Notes under the pieces: model-generated
The model's input: only the letters and a program-made list of their open reading frames with translations
Told to the model about the DNA's origin: nothing
The model's database searches: none
Part shown: positions 32,875 through 41,647 of the stretch, piece by piece
How the letters are laid out: each line of letters opens with the position of its first letter
Numbering within the stretch: the first letter of the stretch is position 1
Origin: Pseudomonadota bacterium
GTDB lineage: Bacteria > Pseudomonadota > Alphaproteobacteria > Micavibrionales > CSBR16-224
DNA length: 64,000 bases
Assembly (NCBI GenBank): GCA_013285465.1
Contig: CP053449.1
Coordinates: 492,001 to 556,000 of the forward strand
Direction: 5' to 3'
Position numbers and translations under genes: made by a program

Positions 32875-33612
32875 ATGCGACGATTTGTAACAGGACGATT
32901 TTTAACAGGGCGCGCTTTAACCATGGCAGCCGTTACGGTTTTGACGGTCGGGCTTTCCGGTCCGGCTTATGCGAGAGAGGCGGCAGCGCCTGAAGTGGAT
33001 GGCGGGCCGGAATATCACCGCGATTACCGCGAAGATGTGCGTGACCGCCGTGAAGATGTCCGCGACCGCCGCGAGAATTGGCGTGACCGCCGTGAAAATG
33101 TCCGTGACCGCTATGAGGACAAGCTGGACCGCCGCGAAGATGTGCGTGACCGCAAGGAAGATGTGCGCGATCGTCGCGAGGATGTTCGTGACCGCAAGGA
33201 AGATATCCGCGACCGTCGCGAAGATGTTTGGGATGAAAAACATGACGGCGGCAAATACGATAAAATAGAAGACAGATGGGATCGCCGCGAAGATGTGCGT
33301 GATCATCGCGAGGATGTCCGTGACCGCAAGGAAGATAAATGGGATCGCCGCGAGGATGTTCGTGACCGCAAGGAAGATGTGCGCGACCGTCGTGAAGATG
33401 TCCGCGACCATCGTGAAAATGTCCGCGACCGCCATGAAAACCGTTTTGACCGCCGTGAAGATGTGCGCGATTACAAGAACGGCCCGTCAAAAGGCAAGCT
33501 TGGCCGTTTTGAAGGGCGAGGCGAAAATGCCGGCAAACATAAAGGTGATTTTAAAGGAAAGCACCGCGGCCAGCGTAAAAAACGCCCGTCCGGCCAACGC
33601 GGTAACCGTTAA
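32875..33612 (+). CDS. secreted protein of seven-residue charged repeats
   Basis: A 245-residue exported protein. A signal peptide ends near residue 33 (GPAYA). Residues 51-120 are ten tandem seven-residue units of the form R-(R/K/H)-E-(D/N)-V-R-D. After a 16-residue interruption (121-136) come nine more units (137-199). The tail (200-245) is Gly/Lys/Arg-rich and very basic. One hydrophobic residue per heptad with alternating charges suggests a single long alpha-helix or a polyelectrolyte rather than a classical coiled coil. TAAGGAG precedes the ATG. Function unknown. Open frames on the opposite strand are shadows of the repeat. Confidence 0.88.
   Translation: MRRFVTGRFLTGRALTMAAVTVLTVGLSGPAYAREAAAPEVDGGPEYHRDYREDVRDRREDVRDRRENWRDRRENVRDRYEDKLDRREDVRDRKEDVRDRREDVRDRKEDIRDRREDVWDEKHDGGKYDKIEDRWDRREDVRDHREDVRDRKEDKWDRREDVRDRKEDVRDRREDVRDHRENVRDRHENRFDRREDVRDYKNGPSKGKLGRFEGRGENAGKHKGDFKGKHRGQRKKRPSGQRGNR
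33025..33471 (+). repeat. 21-bp coding tandem repeat, 10 + 9 units
   Basis: DNA-level tandem repeat encoding the REDVRD heptads. Units vary mainly at third codon positions (cgc/cgt, gaa/gag), so the repeat is held at protein level and is not a recent exact expansion. The two blocks are separated by a 48-bp non-repeat spacer. Confidence 0.9.
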
Positions 33613-34815: not shown

Positions 34816-35256
34816 TTAGGCGGAGGCGGGCGGTGCGCGGCTGTCATAGCTGCGATATGTGAGGGAGGTATATCGCAGATCATTGCCATGCGGATGCAAC
34901 ACGTCGTCAATAGAGGCCGGAACACGGTCCAGCGCGGCTGTGACGGAAGGCAGGATCTGTTTCACGCCGAAAACGGCCAGATAACATAAGGGACATTTCA
35001 GACGGGGATGCTGTGCGGGCTGTTCCTGCCCGTTTTGCAAATCATCGCGCGTGACCCATTTAAAGCCGTCACCGGTACAGATCAGGATTTTGTCGCCGAG
35101 CAGGGCGGAGAGCGTTTGCGATTCCGCTTTTGCAGCCAGTTTGACCGCCAGCGTCTCTGTATCATAGGCGGCGTAAAAAGGCAGTAGCGCGTTCAGCAAT
35201 AATGCCGCCGCGGTCAAAACAATCAGAAAGCGCTTTTTTAAACTGCCGTATGTCAT
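34816..35256 (-). CDS. DUF2946-family protein
   Basis: A 146-residue protein with one N-terminal membrane or signal segment (about 9-29). It has the DUF2946 core ALLGDKILICTGDGFKWV and the Cys motif KCPLCYLAV near 85-92, followed by a His-containing C-terminus. DUF2946 proteins often sit beside TonB-dependent copper receptors and copper chaperones; direct evidence of metal binding is lacking here. The ribosome site is weak. It lies between the 46-residue membrane protein and the barrel protein. Confidence 0.78.
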   Translation of the reverse strand: MTYGSLKKRFLIVLTAAALLLNALLPFYAAYDTETLAVKLAAKAESQTLSALLGDKILICTGDGFKWVTRDDLQNGQEQPAQHPRLKCPLCYLAVFGVKQILPSVTAALDRVPASIDDVLHPHGNDLRYTSLTYRSYDSRAPPASA

Positions 35257-35529: not shown

Positions 35530-36285
35530 ATGCAGGATATGATAAAATTCCCTTGTTTCTCGGATTTGACGCCGGAGCAGCAGCAGCAGGTTGCGACGCT
35601 CTCCTCCCTGAAGCATTTCACATCCGGACAGGAAATTATCGGTTTCGGTGAGGAAGCCGCTTATATGTATTTTGTCGGCGAGGGACAGGTCAAACTGTAC
35701 CGCGCGGATGAAAAAGGACAGGATGCCGTGTTGCGGGTTGTTCCCAAGGGGGACTGGTTTTTTGAGCTTTCCGCCTTTTTCCCGATGAATGCGCCGGCAG
35801 CGGCGGTCACATTGCGGGATGCCGATATTTTAATGATCCCCTCGGGAACGATGCGCGATATCATGTGCCATAATGAAAATTTTGCGCAGAGAATTCTGGG
35901 CCATGCGGCGGAACATTTCCAAATCCTGACCAATAAAGTCATGGATATGACTTTGAAAACGCCGCTGCAGCGCGTCAGTTATTTCCTGTTGCAGGAATTT
36001 ATCCGCCATGGCGGCAAAAACAAAGAATTTACCCTGCCATATAAAAAATCACTGATTGCCAGTGAACTGGGAATGACGGCTGAAACATTCTCGCGCGTTT
36101 TGATGCGGTTGAAGGAAACGGGGATAGAGATTGAGCGCAATAAAGTGACCCTGCCGCATACGGGCGCGCTCTGCGGTGTGTGTGATCCCGCATTGATGCA
36201 TCAATGCCCGAATTTCGATCCCGTACATTGTCCCGCACAGGAGGCATGTCTTTCTGCCAGCTGCCGAAAAACGCGTGTTTCTTGA
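35530..36285 (+). CDS. CRP/FNR-family regulator with C-terminal cysteine cluster
   Basis: A 251-residue transcription regulator: cyclic-nucleotide-like beta-roll (about 8-125), dimer helix, and a winged HTH with SLIASELGMTAETFSRVL. Glu185, Ser188 and Arg189 match the FNR residues that read TTGAT, and two such boxes flank the gene. The usual N-terminal FNR cysteine set is absent (only Cys9, plus Cys113). Instead six cysteines lie at 215, 218, 226, 234, 240 and 245. Bacillus subtilis Fnr binds its [4Fe-4S] cluster through C-terminal cysteines, so redox sensing by the tail is plausible. Confidence 0.9.
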   Translation: MQDMIKFPCFSDLTPEQQQQVATLSSLKHFTSGQEIIGFGEEAAYMYFVGEGQVKLYRADEKGQDAVLRVVPKGDWFFELSAFFPMNAPAAAVTLRDADILMIPSGTMRDIMCHNENFAQRILGHAAEHFQILTNKVMDMTLKTPLQRVSYFLLQEFIRHGGKNKEFTLPYKKSLIASELGMTAETFSRVLMRLKETGIEIERNKVTLPHTGALCGVCDPALMHQCPNFDPVHCPAQEACLSASCRKTRVS

Positions 36286-36295
36286 TTCAAATCAA
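36282..36295 (+). promoter_or_regulatory. FNR box upstream of ompW-cco operon
   Basis: TTGATTCAAATCAA, overlapping the stop codon of the regulator gene. A TTATTATAAAG -10-like sequence begins about 30 bp downstream (36313-36323), fitting class II activation. It serves ompW at 36359 and, with only 36 bp between them, probably ccoN and all following cco genes. Confidence 0.85.
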
Positions 36296-36358
36296 GGACT
36301 TTTTTTTCCCTCTTATTATAAAGTCGTCGCAAAGAAACGTCACAAAAAGGGGGCTATC

Positions 36359-36988
36359 ATGCTTAAAAAACTTGCAACAACAACAATTTTGGGCGGTCTG
36401 TTATGCTGTGCGGCAGCCGGACCGGTTCTGGCCGAAGGCTTTAATTTTCAAAAAGAAAATCTGATGATTCGCCTGCGTGCGATTGATGTGATGCCGGCTG
36501 AAAGCAGTACGCTGAGCATTGCCGATAAAGCAAAAGCCGGCAATCAGGCAGTGCCGGAGCTGGATTTCACCTATTTCTGGACGGATCATTGGGCAACCGA
36601 GCTGATTTTGGCGACCTCCGAACATCATATGTCGACCAAAGGCGGAATTGATCTGGGGGATGTCTGGATTTTGCCGCCGACACTGACGGCGCAGTACCAC
36701 TTTATGCCCGATCAGAGATTCCGCCCCTATCTTGGTGCCGGACTGAACTACACGTTCTTTTATAATGAAAAAGCCGGAACAAGTATCGCGAGCATTGATT
36801 ACGATAACGGTCTGGGCTATGCTTTGCAGGCAGGTTTTGACTACGGTATTGACGATCACTGGGCTATCAATTTTGATGTCAAAAAAGTCTGGCTGAACAC
36901 GGATGTCACCACCACCGGTCCCGCTGTTACCGGAGATGTTGACCTTGATCCCTGGATTATCGGTACCGGTGTGTCTTACCGTTTTTAA
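36359..36988 (+). CDS. ompW: OmpW-family outer-membrane protein
   Basis: A 209-residue eight-strand barrel with a signal peptide (1-25, ending PVLAEG). Family landmarks are NLMIRLRAIDVMP, TYFWTDHWATELILA, LPPTLTAQYHF, RPYLGAGLNYTFFY and the final YRF. OmpW is induced by FNR in enteric bacteria, and an FNR box lies just upstream here. The start at 36359 has AAGGGGG; an earlier in-frame start would overlap the FNR box. Probably co-transcribed with ccoN. Confidence 0.92.
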   Translation: MLKKLATTTILGGLLCCAAAGPVLAEGFNFQKENLMIRLRAIDVMPAESSTLSIADKAKAGNQAVPELDFTYFWTDHWATELILATSEHHMSTKGGIDLGDVWILPPTLTAQYHFMPDQRFRPYLGAGLNYTFFYNEKAGTSIASIDYDNGLGYALQAGFDYGIDDHWAINFDVKKVWLNTDVTTTGPAVTGDVDLDPWIIGTGVSYRF

Positions 36989-37024: not shown

Positions 37025-38461
37025 ATGGCGGCAGTGCGCGAGACGCGATATAATGATGATATCGTTAAGCTTTTTACAATTGCGACAATCTTTTGGGGGA
37101 TCGCGGGTTTTTCCGTCGGTCTCCTGATTGCATTGCAGCTGGTTTTCCCATGGCTGAATATCGGTGAATTTCTGACCTTCGGACGTTTGCGTCCGTTGCA
37201 TACCTCGGCGGTGATTTTCGCCTTTGGCGGCAATGCGCTTTTTGCCACCAGCTATTATGTTGTGCAGCGTACATGCGAGACGCGGCTTTGGGGTGACAAG
37301 CTGGCCTTCTTTACGTTCTGGGGGTTTCAGGTCTTTATCCTGATAGCTGGGCTGGGCTATCTTTTCGGCGTGACGCAGGCAAAAGAATATGCCGAGCCGG
37401 AATGGTATGCCGATCTGTGGCTGACCTTTGTCTGGGTCGCCTATCTTGCCGTGTTTGTGATGACGCTGAGAAAACGGAAAGAGCCGCATATCTACGTCGC
37501 CAACTGGTTTTACCTGTCCTTTATCATCACTGTGGCGGTGCTGCATCTGGTCAACAACATCTCCATTCCGATCGGGTTGTTTGAAACCAAAAGCTATTCG
37601 CTCTGGGCCGGTGTGCAAAGCGCATTGATCCAGTGGTGGTACGGCCATAACGCCGTCGGTTTCTTCCTGACGGCAGGGTTTCTGGGGATGATGTATTATT
37701 TTGTTCCCAAACAGGCAAACCGTCCGGTTTACTCCTACCGTTTGTCCATTCTGCATTTCTGGTCGCTGATCTTTATCTATATCTGGGCCGGTCCGCACCA
37801 TCTGCATTACACGGCGTTGCCCGATTGGGCGCAGACGCTGGGCATGACCTTCTCGATCATGCTGTGGATGCCGTCATGGGGCGGTATGATCAACGGCGTG
37901 ATGACATTATCGGGCGCATGGCATAAATTGCGGGAGGATCCGATCCTGCGCTTTATGGTGATTTCGCTGGCTTTCTACGGCATGTCGACTTTTGAAGGCC
38001 CGCTTTTGTCCATTAAAACCGTCAATGCGCTCAGCCATTATACCGACTGGACGATCGGTCATGTCCATGCCGGTGCATTGGGCTGGAATGCCTTTATTAC
38101 CTTTGGTGCGCTTTATTATCTTGTGCCGAAACTGTGGGATAAGCCGCTTTATTCCATGCGTCTGGTGAATACCCATCTGTGGATTGCCACGGTCGGTATT
38201 GTCCTTTACATCAGCGCGATGTGGGTTGCCGGAATTATGCAGGGGCTGATGTGGCGTTCTTATGACGAGATGGGTTTTTTGACCTATTCCTTCAGTGAAA
38301 CCGTGATGGCGATGAAACCTTATTATATCATCCGTGCTTTGGGAGGATTGCTGTTCACGGGAAGTGCTTTCATCATGGTCTATAATTTTTATAAGACGAT
38401 ATATGCGACGCCCGTTTCCGTTAAGACGAAAACGGCACAGCTGGCGGGAGGTGCGGCATGA
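37025..38461 (+). CDS. ccoN: cbb3-type cytochrome c oxidase subunit I
   Basis: The catalytic heme-copper subunit (478 residues, about 12 membrane helices) that reduces O2 to water at high affinity and pumps protons. Visible landmarks are [16 protein letters not shown] with the low-spin heme His, [18 protein letters not shown] (Cu-B ligand region), [13 protein letters not shown] and [12 protein letters not shown]. The sequence is full length. It overlaps ccoO by 4 bp. Confidence 0.98.
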
Positions 38462-39177
38462 TGAACAAACACGCAAAAATCGAACGCAGTCCTTTTCTGT
38501 TGTTTATACTGATTGTCGTTGCCGTCTCTATCGGTGGTCTTGTCGAAGCGGTGCCGCTGTTCCGTGTTGAAACAACGATTGAACGTGTTGACGGGGTGCG
38601 TCCCTATACGCCGCTGGAGCTGGCGGGGAAGGCGATTTATCTCCGCGAAGGGTGTTATACCTGTCACAGTCAGCAAATTCGTCCCCTGCGTGACGAGGTT
38701 GAACGTTACGGGCACTACTCCATCGCGGCGGAAAGCATGTATGACCACCCGTTTCAATGGGGATCGAAACGTACAGGGCCTGACCTGGCCCGTATCGGCG
38801 GGAAGTATTCCGATGACTGGCATGCGGTGCATTTAAAGAATCCGCGCGATGTTGTGCCGGAATCGATTATGCCTGCCTATGCTTTTATGGCCAAGCGTGG
38901 CGCACGTCTTCACGATATCGGCAAAGATATGAAAGCGCTGAAAATGGCCGGTGTTCCCTATACGGATGACATGATTAAAAACGCCTATTGGGATGCGCTG
39001 GCACAGGCGAAGAATGATGCTGATACCGACGGATTGACGGAACGCTATGGTGAAAAACTGAATATGCGTGATTTTGACGGTAATCCGACCGTGACGACAG
39101 AGCTGGATGCGCTGATTGCTTATTTGCAGGTGCTGGGCACGATGGTTGATTTTGAAACCTATCAGGAGGCGCAGTAA
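38458..39177 (+). CDS. ccoO: cbb3 oxidase subunit II, monoheme cytochrome c
   Basis: A 239-residue membrane-anchored cytochrome c. One N-terminal helix (12-30) is followed by the heme site CYTCH (66-70) in [17 protein letters not shown] and a Met ligand candidate in the SIMPAYAFM segment. It receives electrons from CcoP and passes them to CcoN. Two consecutive ATG codons begin the gene; the 4-bp overlap with ccoN implies coupled translation. Confidence 0.98.
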
Positions 39178-39178
39178 G

Positions 39179-39355
39179 ATGATGTCACGTTTTTTTGCCG
39201 ATGCTGCGACAATTATGCCCTCGCTGATGCTGATACTGTTTCTGGCATTTTTCTGCGGCGTGATTGTCTGGCTTTATAATCCGCGCAATAAAGAAAAATT
39301 CGAAGAATACGGCAGAATTCCGTTTAAGGAGGAGCCTCATGGCGGTGAAAAATAA
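39179..39355 (+). CDS. ccoQ: cbb3 oxidase small subunit CcoQ/FixQ
   Basis: A 58-residue single-helix protein (MMSRFFADAATIMPSL at the start, then a helix to about 33) ending in a charged tail (RIPFKEEPHGGEK). It stabilises the CcoNOP complex. AGGAGG lies before 39179; longer frames that begin inside ccoO are not supported. It overlaps the start of ccoP by 17 bp. Confidence 0.93.
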   Translation: MMSRFFADAATIMPSLMLILFLAFFCGVIVWLYNPRNKEKFEEYGRIPFKEEPHGGEK

Positions 39356-40232
39356 AAAAAAGCCATCGCAAGGAAAAGCGGGGCGTGAAATTGATAAAAT
39401 TTCAGGTATTGAAACAACCGGCCACGAATGGGACGGCCTGAAAGAGCTGAATAATCCTTTGCCGCGCTGGTGGTTATGGGTGTTTATTCTGACCTGTGTC
39501 TGGGCTGTCGGATATTGGGTCGTCTATCCGGCATGGCCGACGATCTCGGGACATACCAAAGGGAAATACGGCTGGACGCAGCATAAGCAGCTGGCGGCCG
39601 GACAGGAAGAAATACGTGAAATTCAGGCGGCATTTCTTGCAATGTTACGCCGGACGCCGTTAACGGACGTTAAGAAAGATCCGGAACTTTACGCTTTCGC
39701 GCTGACGGGCGGAGCGGTGGCCTTCAAAAACCATTGCGCGGCTTGTCACGGTACCGGTGCGGACGGTATGGCGCATTACCCGAACCTGAATGATGATGAC
39801 TGGCTTTGGGGCGGCAGCGTGGACGAAATTTACCGCACAATCAAATACGGTATCCGCTCATCCCATGACGAAACACATATTTCCGCCATGAGTTCTTTCG
39901 GAACGGACGGCATTTTGACGCGCCCCGAGATTCTGGCAGTGACCGATCATGTGCGGTCGCTTTCGGGATTGGGGGAAGATAATGCCCGCGGTGCCGTTAT
40001 TTTTCAGGAGCAATGCTCCAGCTGTCACGGTCTGGACGGCAAAGGTGATCGTGCCATCGGTGCGCCGAACCTGACCGATGCGGTCTGGCTTTACGGCAGC
40101 AGCCGCGATGCGGTTTCCTCCGTCATTTTCTCTGCCCGTAACAGCGTGATGCCGCATTGGCATGGCGTCATCAGCGATGATAAAATTCGTCAGCTGGCGC
40201 TGTATGTGCATTCTTTGGGTGGCGGCGAATGA
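39339..40232 (+). CDS. ccoP: cbb3 oxidase subunit III, diheme cytochrome c
   Basis: A 297-residue diheme cytochrome. It has a Lys-rich N-terminus with a conserved GHEWDGLKELNNPLPRWW block, one membrane helix (about 44-65), and heme sites CAACH (133-137) and CSSCH (226-230). The start at 39339 is preceded by AAGGAGGAG. It accepts electrons from the soluble or membrane cytochrome c pool. Overlaps ccoG by 4 bp. Confidence 0.97.
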   Translation: MAVKNKKKPSQGKAGREIDKISGIETTGHEWDGLKELNNPLPRWWLWVFILTCVWAVGYWVVYPAWPTISGHTKGKYGWTQHKQLAAGQEEIREIQAAFLAMLRRTPLTDVKKDPELYAFALTGGAVAFKNHCAACHGTGADGMAHYPNLNDDDWLWGGSVDEIYRTIKYGIRSSHDETHISAMSSFGTDGILTRPEILAVTDHVRSLSGLGEDNARGAVIFQEQCSSCHGLDGKGDRAIGAPNLTDAVWLYGSSRDAVSSVIFSARNSVMPHWHGVISDDKIRQLALYVHSLGGGE

Positions 40233-41647
40233 GTGATGACGGCAATAATGGCGGGATCACTTATTTTGAAAAACAGCAGAACATTTACCCGCAACGCGTC
40301 TGGGGGCGTTACCGCAAGCTGAAATGGCTTGCAATGGTGGTGTTGCTGGGTATTTATTACGGCGTGCCCTGGCTGCGCTGGGATCGCGGACCGCATGTGC
40401 CGGATCAGGCTGTGCTGATTGATATGCCCAGCCGCCGCGCTTATTTTTTCTTTATCGAAATCTGGCCGCAGGAAGTTTACTACCTGACGGCCATTCTGAT
40501 TTTCGCCGCCTTGATGCTGTTTTTTGTGACGGCCTTGCTTGGGCGGGTCTGGTGCGGCTATGCCTGTCCGCAAACCGTCTGGACGGATTTATTTATCTGG
40601 GTTGAACGTATTGTGCAGGGTGACCGTAATGCACGGATGAAGCTGGATAAATCACCGCTGTCTTTTGAAAAGATCTGGAAAAAGGGTCTGACGCATAGTC
40701 TTTGGATATTAATCGGGGTTTGTACCGGCGGGGCATGGGTCTTCTATTTCAATGATGCACCGACATTGTGGGAGCATATCATCCATTTTGATGTGCCGTG
40801 GTCCGTCAGTAGCTGGATTGTCGCACTGACGGCATCCACCTATGTGATGGCGGGTTATGCGCGGGAGCAGGTTTGCACCTTTATGTGCCCCTATGCGCGG
40901 TTTCAATCGGCGATGTTTGACGAAGATACGCTGATTATCGGCTATGACGAGAAACGCGGTGAACCGCGCGGAAAACATAAGAAAGGCGACAGCTGGGACG
41001 GGCGCGGGCATTGCATTGATTGTATGCAATGCGTCAATGTCTGTCCGGTGGGAATTGATATCCGCGATGGGTTGCAGATGGAATGTATTGCCTGCGGCTT
41101 ATGCGTAGATGCCTGTAATAATATCATGGATAAGATTGAATTGCCGCGCGGCTTGATCCGCTATGATACGGCGAGCCATATTGAAAAAGGCACGCAGCTG
41201 AAACTGGCGCATTTTTTCCGTCCGCGGACATTCTGGTACGCGGCTTTGCTGACTGTGTTGGGGGCATTTGTAATTTTCGGTCTGACGCATCGTTCGGTTG
41301 TCGAGCTACATGTCGCACATGACCGCAATCCGCTTTATGTGATGATGTCCGATGGTGATATCCGCAACGGTTATACACTCAAGATTCTGAATAAAACCCA
41401 TCAGGACCGTGTTTACAGCCTGAGCGTGGAAGGAATTGAAACAACGAAGCTGATGTTGCAAAATGCACCGGATGCCGCTATTGAAACATTGCCTGTCTTT
41501 GCCGACAGCGTCGGGCATTACCGCCTGTTCCTGTTTGCGGAAAAACAGAAAGCGTTTCGCAGTAATATCACGTTTATAATAACGGAGCAGCAAGACGGTA
41601 TTGTGACGGAGCAGGAAACAATCTTTATCAGTGGAGAAGGGCGATGA
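40229..41647 (+). CDS. ccoG: cbb3 oxidase assembly ferredoxin CcoG/RdxA
   Basis: A 472-residue membrane iron-sulfur protein implicated in reducing copper during cbb3 assembly. It has several membrane helices in the first 250 residues, the VWCGYACPQTVW motif, and a two-cluster ferredoxin domain with CIDCMQCVNVCP and CIACGLCVDAC. An Ig-like FixG C-terminal domain runs from about 360 on. Overlaps ccoH by 4 bp. Confidence 0.97.
   Translation: MSDDGNNGGITYFEKQQNIYPQRVWGRYRKLKWLAMVVLLGIYYGVPWLRWDRGPHVPDQAVLIDMPSRRAYFFFIEIWPQEVYYLTAILIFAALMLFFVTALLGRVWCGYACPQTVWTDLFIWVERIVQGDRNARMKLDKSPLSFEKIWKKGLTHSLWILIGVCTGGAWVFYFNDAPTLWEHIIHFDVPWSVSSWIVALTASTYVMAGYAREQVCTFMCPYARFQSAMFDEDTLIIGYDEKRGEPRGKHKKGDSWDGRGHCIDCMQCVNVCPVGIDIRDGLQMECIACGLCVDACNNIMDKIELPRGLIRYDTASHIEKGTQLKLAHFFRPRTFWYAALLTVLGAFVIFGLTHRSVVELHVAHDRNPLYVMMSDGDIRNGYTLKILNKTHQDRVYSLSVEGIETTKLMLQNAPDAAIETLPVFADSVGHYRLFLFAEKQKAFRSNITFIITEQQDGIVTEQETIFISGEGR

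Follow-up and report, generated by a model that had tools for sequence, protein, structure and literature searches.

Oxygen sensors of the Crp/Fnr superfamily are usually recognised by a set of N-terminal cysteines, and other members are called FixK or set aside, as stated in the available parts of two earlier reports (PMC4999443, PMC8510549). In canonical FNR the set is spaced CX2CX5-7C (C20-X2-C23-X5-C29 in E. coli) and is accompanied by a cysteine of the beta-roll (C122 in E. coli). The Fnr of Bacillus carries its cluster cysteines in a C-terminal extension, spaced CX2CX4C and complemented by an aspartate (Asp141 in B. subtilis), according to the accessible sections of the source (PMC3520743). 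Among the Alphaproteobacteria, the FnrL-type N-termini show CX2CX7C in 21 of the 21 read, and in Dinoroseobacter shibae fnrL (Dshi_0660) and a hemN (Dshi_0659) are adjacent by number, as given in the accessible part of PMC5398030. A literature search for Crp/Fnr regulators with C-terminal cysteines outside Bacillus found none, although an earlier description is possible, above all in subscription papers.

The regulator analysed here is encoded in a 64-kb stretch of alphaproteobacterial DNA (the window; Table 1) and has in common with FNR, FnrL, FnrN and FnrP the fold, the ExxSR residues, TTGAT-N4-ATCAA sites and the kinds of neighbouring genes, namely cco, hemN, nar and nrdD. The two domains expected of the superfamily, a cNMP-type sensor domain (PF00027, E 1.2e-16) and a Crp-type winged helix-turn-helix (PF13545, HTH_Crp_2, E 5.5e-11), were both found above the Pfam cut-off, while its tail is covered by no Pfam family. 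The preliminary description had matched the DNA-reading Glu, Ser and Arg to those of FNR, and the alignment agrees: ETFSR (185-189) is the counterpart of E209-T-I-S212-R213 in E. coli FNR (NC_000913), and E185, S188 and R189, taken with the flanking boxes, suggest DNA recognition of the FNR kind. The same description had located six cysteines in the last 37 residues and reported the N-terminal cluster ligands missing, both of which are borne out by the cysteine positions (9, 113, 215, 218, 226, 234, 240 and 245): residues 215-251 hold six cysteines, and C9 is the sole one in the N-terminal region, in contrast to the N-terminal set of canonical FNR. The beta-roll cysteine of FNR likewise has no counterpart, since C113, the one cysteine in the middle of the protein, is poorly kept among relatives (see below). 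We refer to a tail with the cysteines C215, C218, C226 and C234, here spaced CX2CX7CX7C, as type A. A pseudogene or a frame error was ruled out, as the frame is intact in the window and in the relatives L002 and L053.

Table 1. Features of the regulator locus and of the NIT-fused relatives (positions in the window unless a locus handle is given)
Feature	Position	Strand	Evidence or remark
Crp/Fnr regulator, 251 aa, type A tail	35530-36285	+	ORF, translation, domain search
Recognition helix ETFSR (E185-T-F-S188-R189), FNR/DNR type	36082-36096	+	sequence, family alignment
Four conserved tail Cys C215, C218, C226, C234, CX2CX7CX7C, proposed cofactor site	36172-36231	+	45 type A proteins
C240 to C245, two extra Cys	36247-36264	+	kept in same-genus relative, not in wider family
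FNR box TTGATTAAAATCAA	35501-35514	.	centre 22 bp 5' of regulator ATG
FNR box TTGATTCAAATCAA	36282-36295	.	overlaps regulator stop codon
ompW-family outer membrane protein	36359-36988	+	PF03922, E 5.2e-47, on longer frame 36275-36988
ccoN, cbb3 oxidase subunit I	37025-38461	+	TIGR00780, E 5.2e-225
ccoO	38458-39177	+	TIGR00781
ccoP	39342-40232	+	TIGR00782
ccoG	40229-41647	+	TIGR02745
NIT-fused type A proteins	L180:1492-3057; L181:1474-3195; L081:2-1438	-; -; +	domain search

The regulator is no lone oddity but one of at least 45 type A proteins of the Alphaproteobacteria, collected by searching 55 relatives of the same order with the window protein, and 385 genomes of the class, 142 of the order and 398 of the phylum with a 15-row alignment. 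The 45 are distinct proteins with duplicates removed; type A matches in genomes G449, G519 (two), G487 and G489 were left out of them. C215, C226 and C234 are each kept in 45/45 and C218 in 44/45, and the spacing is CX2CX7CX7C in 42 of the 45, CX2CX7CX6C in two and CX2CX7CX9C in one, figures in which the use of the tail pattern as a filter favours apparent conservation. Retention of the remaining cysteines is low (C9 2/45, C113 3/45, C240 4/45, C245 5/45), 28 of the 45 proteins have no cysteine before the column of residue 40, and the invariant cysteine columns lie in the tail only. Chance cysteine composition was ruled out by the four positions kept across 45 relatives, and a role of all six tail cysteines as ligands by the scarcity of C240 and C245. 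All 45 proteins have E185, S188 and R189, but so do nearly all relatives that lack the tail. A comparison of the window protein with its 89% relative in L002 shows a tail that evolves faster than the body, with changes at 9 of 41 positions vs 21 of 210, and none of the six tail cysteines is changed.

Several individual cases deserve mention. In L082, a type A protein, Tyr replaces the second tail cysteine (tail LCQFYD...) and the end is His-rich (CPHHHR), a replacement that may represent a ligand swap or a loss of function. A type A gene at L080 (G173:C7:55395-56112) is broken over two frames, through either a sequencing error or decay of the copy. No match was obtained in the type A searches of G002, a genome of the same genus that is 88% complete, and no relative among viral contigs searched with alignment A2. 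Near the regulator, a 146-aa ORF at 34816-35256 (-) matches no Pfam family at E 0.001 and adjoins the regulator also in L002 (149 aa), and a 245-aa ORF at 32875-33612 (+) has a signal-like start followed mostly by charged repeats of the RREDVRDRxE type.

The preliminary description had also stated that perfect FNR boxes flank the gene, and they do: the exact pattern TTGATNNNNATCAA occurs in the 64-kb window at these two places only. Genome-wide, TTGAYNNNNRTCAA occurs 27 times vs 2 for a backward control pattern; intergenic boxes of the same genome precede hemN (by 44 bp), nrdD, the nar region, moeA, the type B regulator described below and ompW-cco, and several others lie within genes, probably by chance. 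A box is kept at the same upstream place in L002 (TTGACGAAAATCAA) and in L053 (TTGATTCAAATCAA, between hemN and the regulator), and genome G003 has the arrangement hemN, box, regulator, box, ccoNOP. Since the upstream box is centred too near the ATG for activation from -41.5, it probably serves negative autoregulation of the regulator gene. The downstream box has its centre 28.5 bp before a TATAAA (36317-36322) identified by eye, and would suit class II activation of an ompW promoter from about -41.5; a consensus promoter scan, which was uninformative, did not list this promoter.

The regulator gene directly precedes ompW-ccoNOPG, the ATG of ompW agreeing with the start in L002, and the context of the window regulator is microaerobic or anaerobic. 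Counts of neighbours across the family are lower bounds, most loci having been examined with 1.5-kb flanks. On this footing, type A genes lie near narK in at least 35/45, moeA in 29/45, ccoN in 3/45, and nrdD and ubiV in 2/45 each, with an upstream box in 38/45; narK is found near 16 of 33 relatives without tail cysteines and 3 of 27 with one. An upstream box is also present in 17/33 of the former and 14/27 of the latter, and because it is so frequent in tail-less relatives the box alone is no marker of type A.

A canonical FNR appears to be missing from this lineage. No protein with the N-terminal FNR cysteine set was found in the 55 genomes of the order, and the FnrL model at E<=1e-15, in a search that does match E. 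coli, found one protein in 55 order relatives, L073 (1420-2178, -), which is without the N-terminal set and has cysteines at 4, 103, 247 and 249; its end reads DDVCGCSGN. In the regulator's own genome the same model at E<=1e-15 gave no match, and of five genes with a cNMP domain three encode Crp/Fnr regulators, all without the N-terminal set, so that a canonical FNR elsewhere in this genome was ruled out. The other two of these regulators (G000:C1:2311393-2312160 and 2298694-2299371, L039) are a type A protein by narK/moeA and a type B protein by nnrS and a radical-SAM (moaA-like) gene. Across the class, the FnrL model at E<=1e-30 matched 153 of 385 genomes and 1 of 11 type A genomes, a deficit that by itself falls short of significance (Fisher p 0.056) and in which ancestry is a confounding factor; the one of the 11 that also has an FnrL match is G346, where the N-terminus is CX2CX7C. 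The first three cysteines of type A repeat precisely this spacing of the class FnrL, which is found at the N-terminus in FnrL and at the C-terminus in type A.

The preliminary description presented an FNR-type regulator with its cysteines moved to the C-terminus. The C-terminal cysteine site and the FNR-type reading residues stand, but the scaffold is nearer to DNR than to FNR by sequence, which makes "moved" probably wrong and a new site likelier. In a phmmer search with the window protein, the 3fx3/3h3z chains scored 75.5 bits, P. aeruginosa DNR (3dkw) 61.5 bits and FNR 44 bits, and both 3dkw and 3fx3/3h3z are among the closest PDB relatives. The best NCBIfam match is FtrB (NF006901, E 2.4e-33, residues 4-222), which ends inside the tail, and at 115.4 bits, well below the curated cut-off (211), the regulator is no FtrB member. 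Given the nearness to DNR, the cysteines have probably evolved anew on a DNR-like scaffold. As for the parallel with Bacillus Fnr that had been drawn earlier, it holds for the C-terminal position in both B. subtilis and B. cereus, where the window regulator likewise has its conserved putative site; spacing and fourth ligand differ, as Bacillus has CX2CX4C and an Asp and type A has all four cysteines in the tail, on the accessible sections of the Bacillus source (PMC3520743).

A tree of the Crp/Fnr proteins with this tail, which had been suggested as a check, gave a qualified answer. In a quick tree of 121 rows, from which the tail and the L080 rows were left out, the 24 rows of type A form one clade (SH-aLRT 99) with no tail-less row inside it, which serves as a check on the bias from filtering by tail pattern. 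A more careful tree under a mixture model covered 88 rows including the 45 type A proteins; the tail and helix-cysteine columns were left out, and types B and C as well as the proteins with no or one tail cysteine were thinned. This tree requires three changes for type A, of which well-supported branches force no more than one. Here L181/L081 and L180/L027/L083/L085 are separate from the remaining type A proteins, and the tail-less, long-branched L184 groups with L082. The window protein forms a 100/100 group with L002 and L005, which is joined (100/96) to mostly narK-linked type A proteins. A single origin of the type A tail is likely on these trees.

Related regulators carry other C-terminal designs. 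Type B (16 proteins) has two tail cysteines, and types C (24 proteins, e.g. CSACSSEFPC and CSHCSSLPGEC) and D (6 proteins, e.g. CNFCSISEEC) have three, spaced CX2CX5-6C; the CX2CX5C variants share the spacing of E. coli FNR. A further cysteine, located in the first HTH helix (QRIGCFLL), is present, in the HMM alignment, in 30/30 type C and D proteins vs 6/121 of other types, where the Fisher p of 5e-26 is too small because the sequences are related. Among the six exceptions, L019 stops at a contig edge and L139 has a nearly type D tail, and in type A the same column is Tyr in 37/45. With three tail cysteines and one helix cysteine in types C and D, and four tail cysteines in type A, each design arrives at four. 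The Asp of B. subtilis Fnr precedes the first ligand of its tail by 86 residues (by residue numbers, unaligned, in the accessible part of PMC3520743), and the helix cysteine of types C and D precedes the first tail cysteine mostly by 68-72. Type C loci, including L026, L030, L032, L018 and L048, encode DNR-like regulators of the same order and beyond, and lie near ccoN in at least 10/24, hemN in 4/24 and ubiV in 5/24, with an upstream box in 16/24. Type B genes lie near nnrS in at least 12/16, with a box in 10/16. No upstream box was found in the six type D loci (L092, L117, L051, L129, L135, L140), whose tail VCxxC-x5-C resembles the N-terminal CQDCSISQLC of E. coli FNR. Three distant type A members (L180, L181 and L081) have the architecture NIT - cNMP - HTH - type A tail, with E-values for the nitrate-sensing NIT domain (PF08376) of 5e-28, 1e-40 and 1.5e-30, respectively, and narK adjoins the first two.

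With moderate confidence, we propose that the window regulator is a sensor of low oxygen, perhaps of NO, which carries a labile [4Fe-4S] cluster at its DNA-binding domain and stands in for FNR. We infer cofactor, ligands, direction of control and regulation of the neighbours as follows. The protein would be a dimeric Crp/Fnr activator and repressor with one O2-labile iron-sulfur cluster, most likely [4Fe-4S], per subunit, held by C215, C218, C226 and C234. Because the tail continues straight from the wing of the HTH domain, the cluster would be located at the DNA-binding domain, unlike that of FNR in the N-terminal sensor region; a structure prediction of two sequences (mean pLDDT 44.8, tail below 50) was too poor for placing the tail. 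Under anoxia the cluster-bearing protein would bind TTGAT-N4-ATCAA, activate transcription of ompW-ccoNOPG by binding at about -41.5 of the promoter, and probably repress its own gene via the box near the start codon, and O2 would destroy the cluster and release the DNA. In this lineage the regulator would thereby assume the role that FnrL has elsewhere in the Alphaproteobacteria, and its paralogue with the same tail may serve narK/narGHI, moeA and ubiTUV.

Zinc sites typically comprise two cysteine pairs in a short tail, and four-cysteine sites also bind zinc. The four tail cysteines could accordingly form a zinc knuckle with the structural role of stabilising the DNA-binding domain, any signal entering via the effector domain, and the further CXXC near the end of most type A tails would suit such a knuckle; the position of the tail outside any Pfam family is neutral either way. 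Nevertheless, a zinc site seems unlikely given that the first three cysteines have the ligand spacing of alphaproteobacterial FnrL, that types C and D complete their four cysteines from another helix, with the FNR-like spacing of some variants, and that the gene context is anaerobic throughout. CXXC pairs are also typical redox thiols, and a metal-free switch might be envisaged in which cysteine pairs form disulfides under oxidation and turn DNA binding on or off. RedB, a Crp/Fnr protein with too few cysteines for a cluster, is reported to be a redox regulator, its mechanism being unexplored as far as the available part of the report tells (PMC9603517), but a two-cysteine switch needs neither four kept cysteines nor a spacing fixed in 42/45 proteins, and we consider it rather improbable.

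The proximity to DNR (E 8.6e-16, against 1.9e-10 for FNR) and the type B sister regulators near nnrS would be in line with a haem-based NO sensor of the DNR type to which the cysteine tail is secondary. DNR/NnrR regulators share FNR-type DNA sites, and DNR-type NO sensors read FNR boxes too. However, the column of DNR H187, which we take to be the haem ligand, holds Glu (E179) in the window protein and Tyr in 21/45 or His in 19/45 type A proteins; although these His residues would favour haem, there is no fixed haem His, and a haem-type DNR was weakened as first choice. Haem binding would also leave unexplained the four conserved tail cysteines by which the regulator differs from DNR/NnrR, and it appears quite improbable. 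Even less credence, to the point of being highly improbable, is given to a FixK-like regulator without sensing, a constitutive binder of FNR boxes set by its own abundance, with a tail conserved for structural reasons. The box at the regulator's own start would agree with this, as would FixK proteins that are without the cysteines and controlled otherwise, in the accessible part of PMC4999443, but strict conservation of the cysteines within a fast-changing tail speaks against it. An O2-labile [4Fe-4S] cluster is thus the best reading, because the FnrL-like cysteine spacing, the anaerobic neighbourhood, the FNR boxes and the absence of a canonical FNR cysteine set would all be accounted for.

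We may further hypothesize, tentatively and with a little more doubt than belief, that in the absence of canonical FNR, DNR-like regulators re-evolved [4Fe-4S] sensing of the FNR type at the DNA-binding domain, with two or more ligand designs, type A on the one hand and types C and D on the other, and that some type A proteins became joined to NIT domains as oxygen-and-nitrate switches. In FNR the cluster controls dimerisation. If the cluster reading is true, the cluster of the type A regulators would be coupled straight to the DNA-binding domain and would work by a mechanism unlike that of FNR, one sensing chemistry would have arisen more than once on one scaffold in a clear case, and the oxygen switch of an alphaproteobacterial group would sit where screens for N-terminal cysteines miss it.
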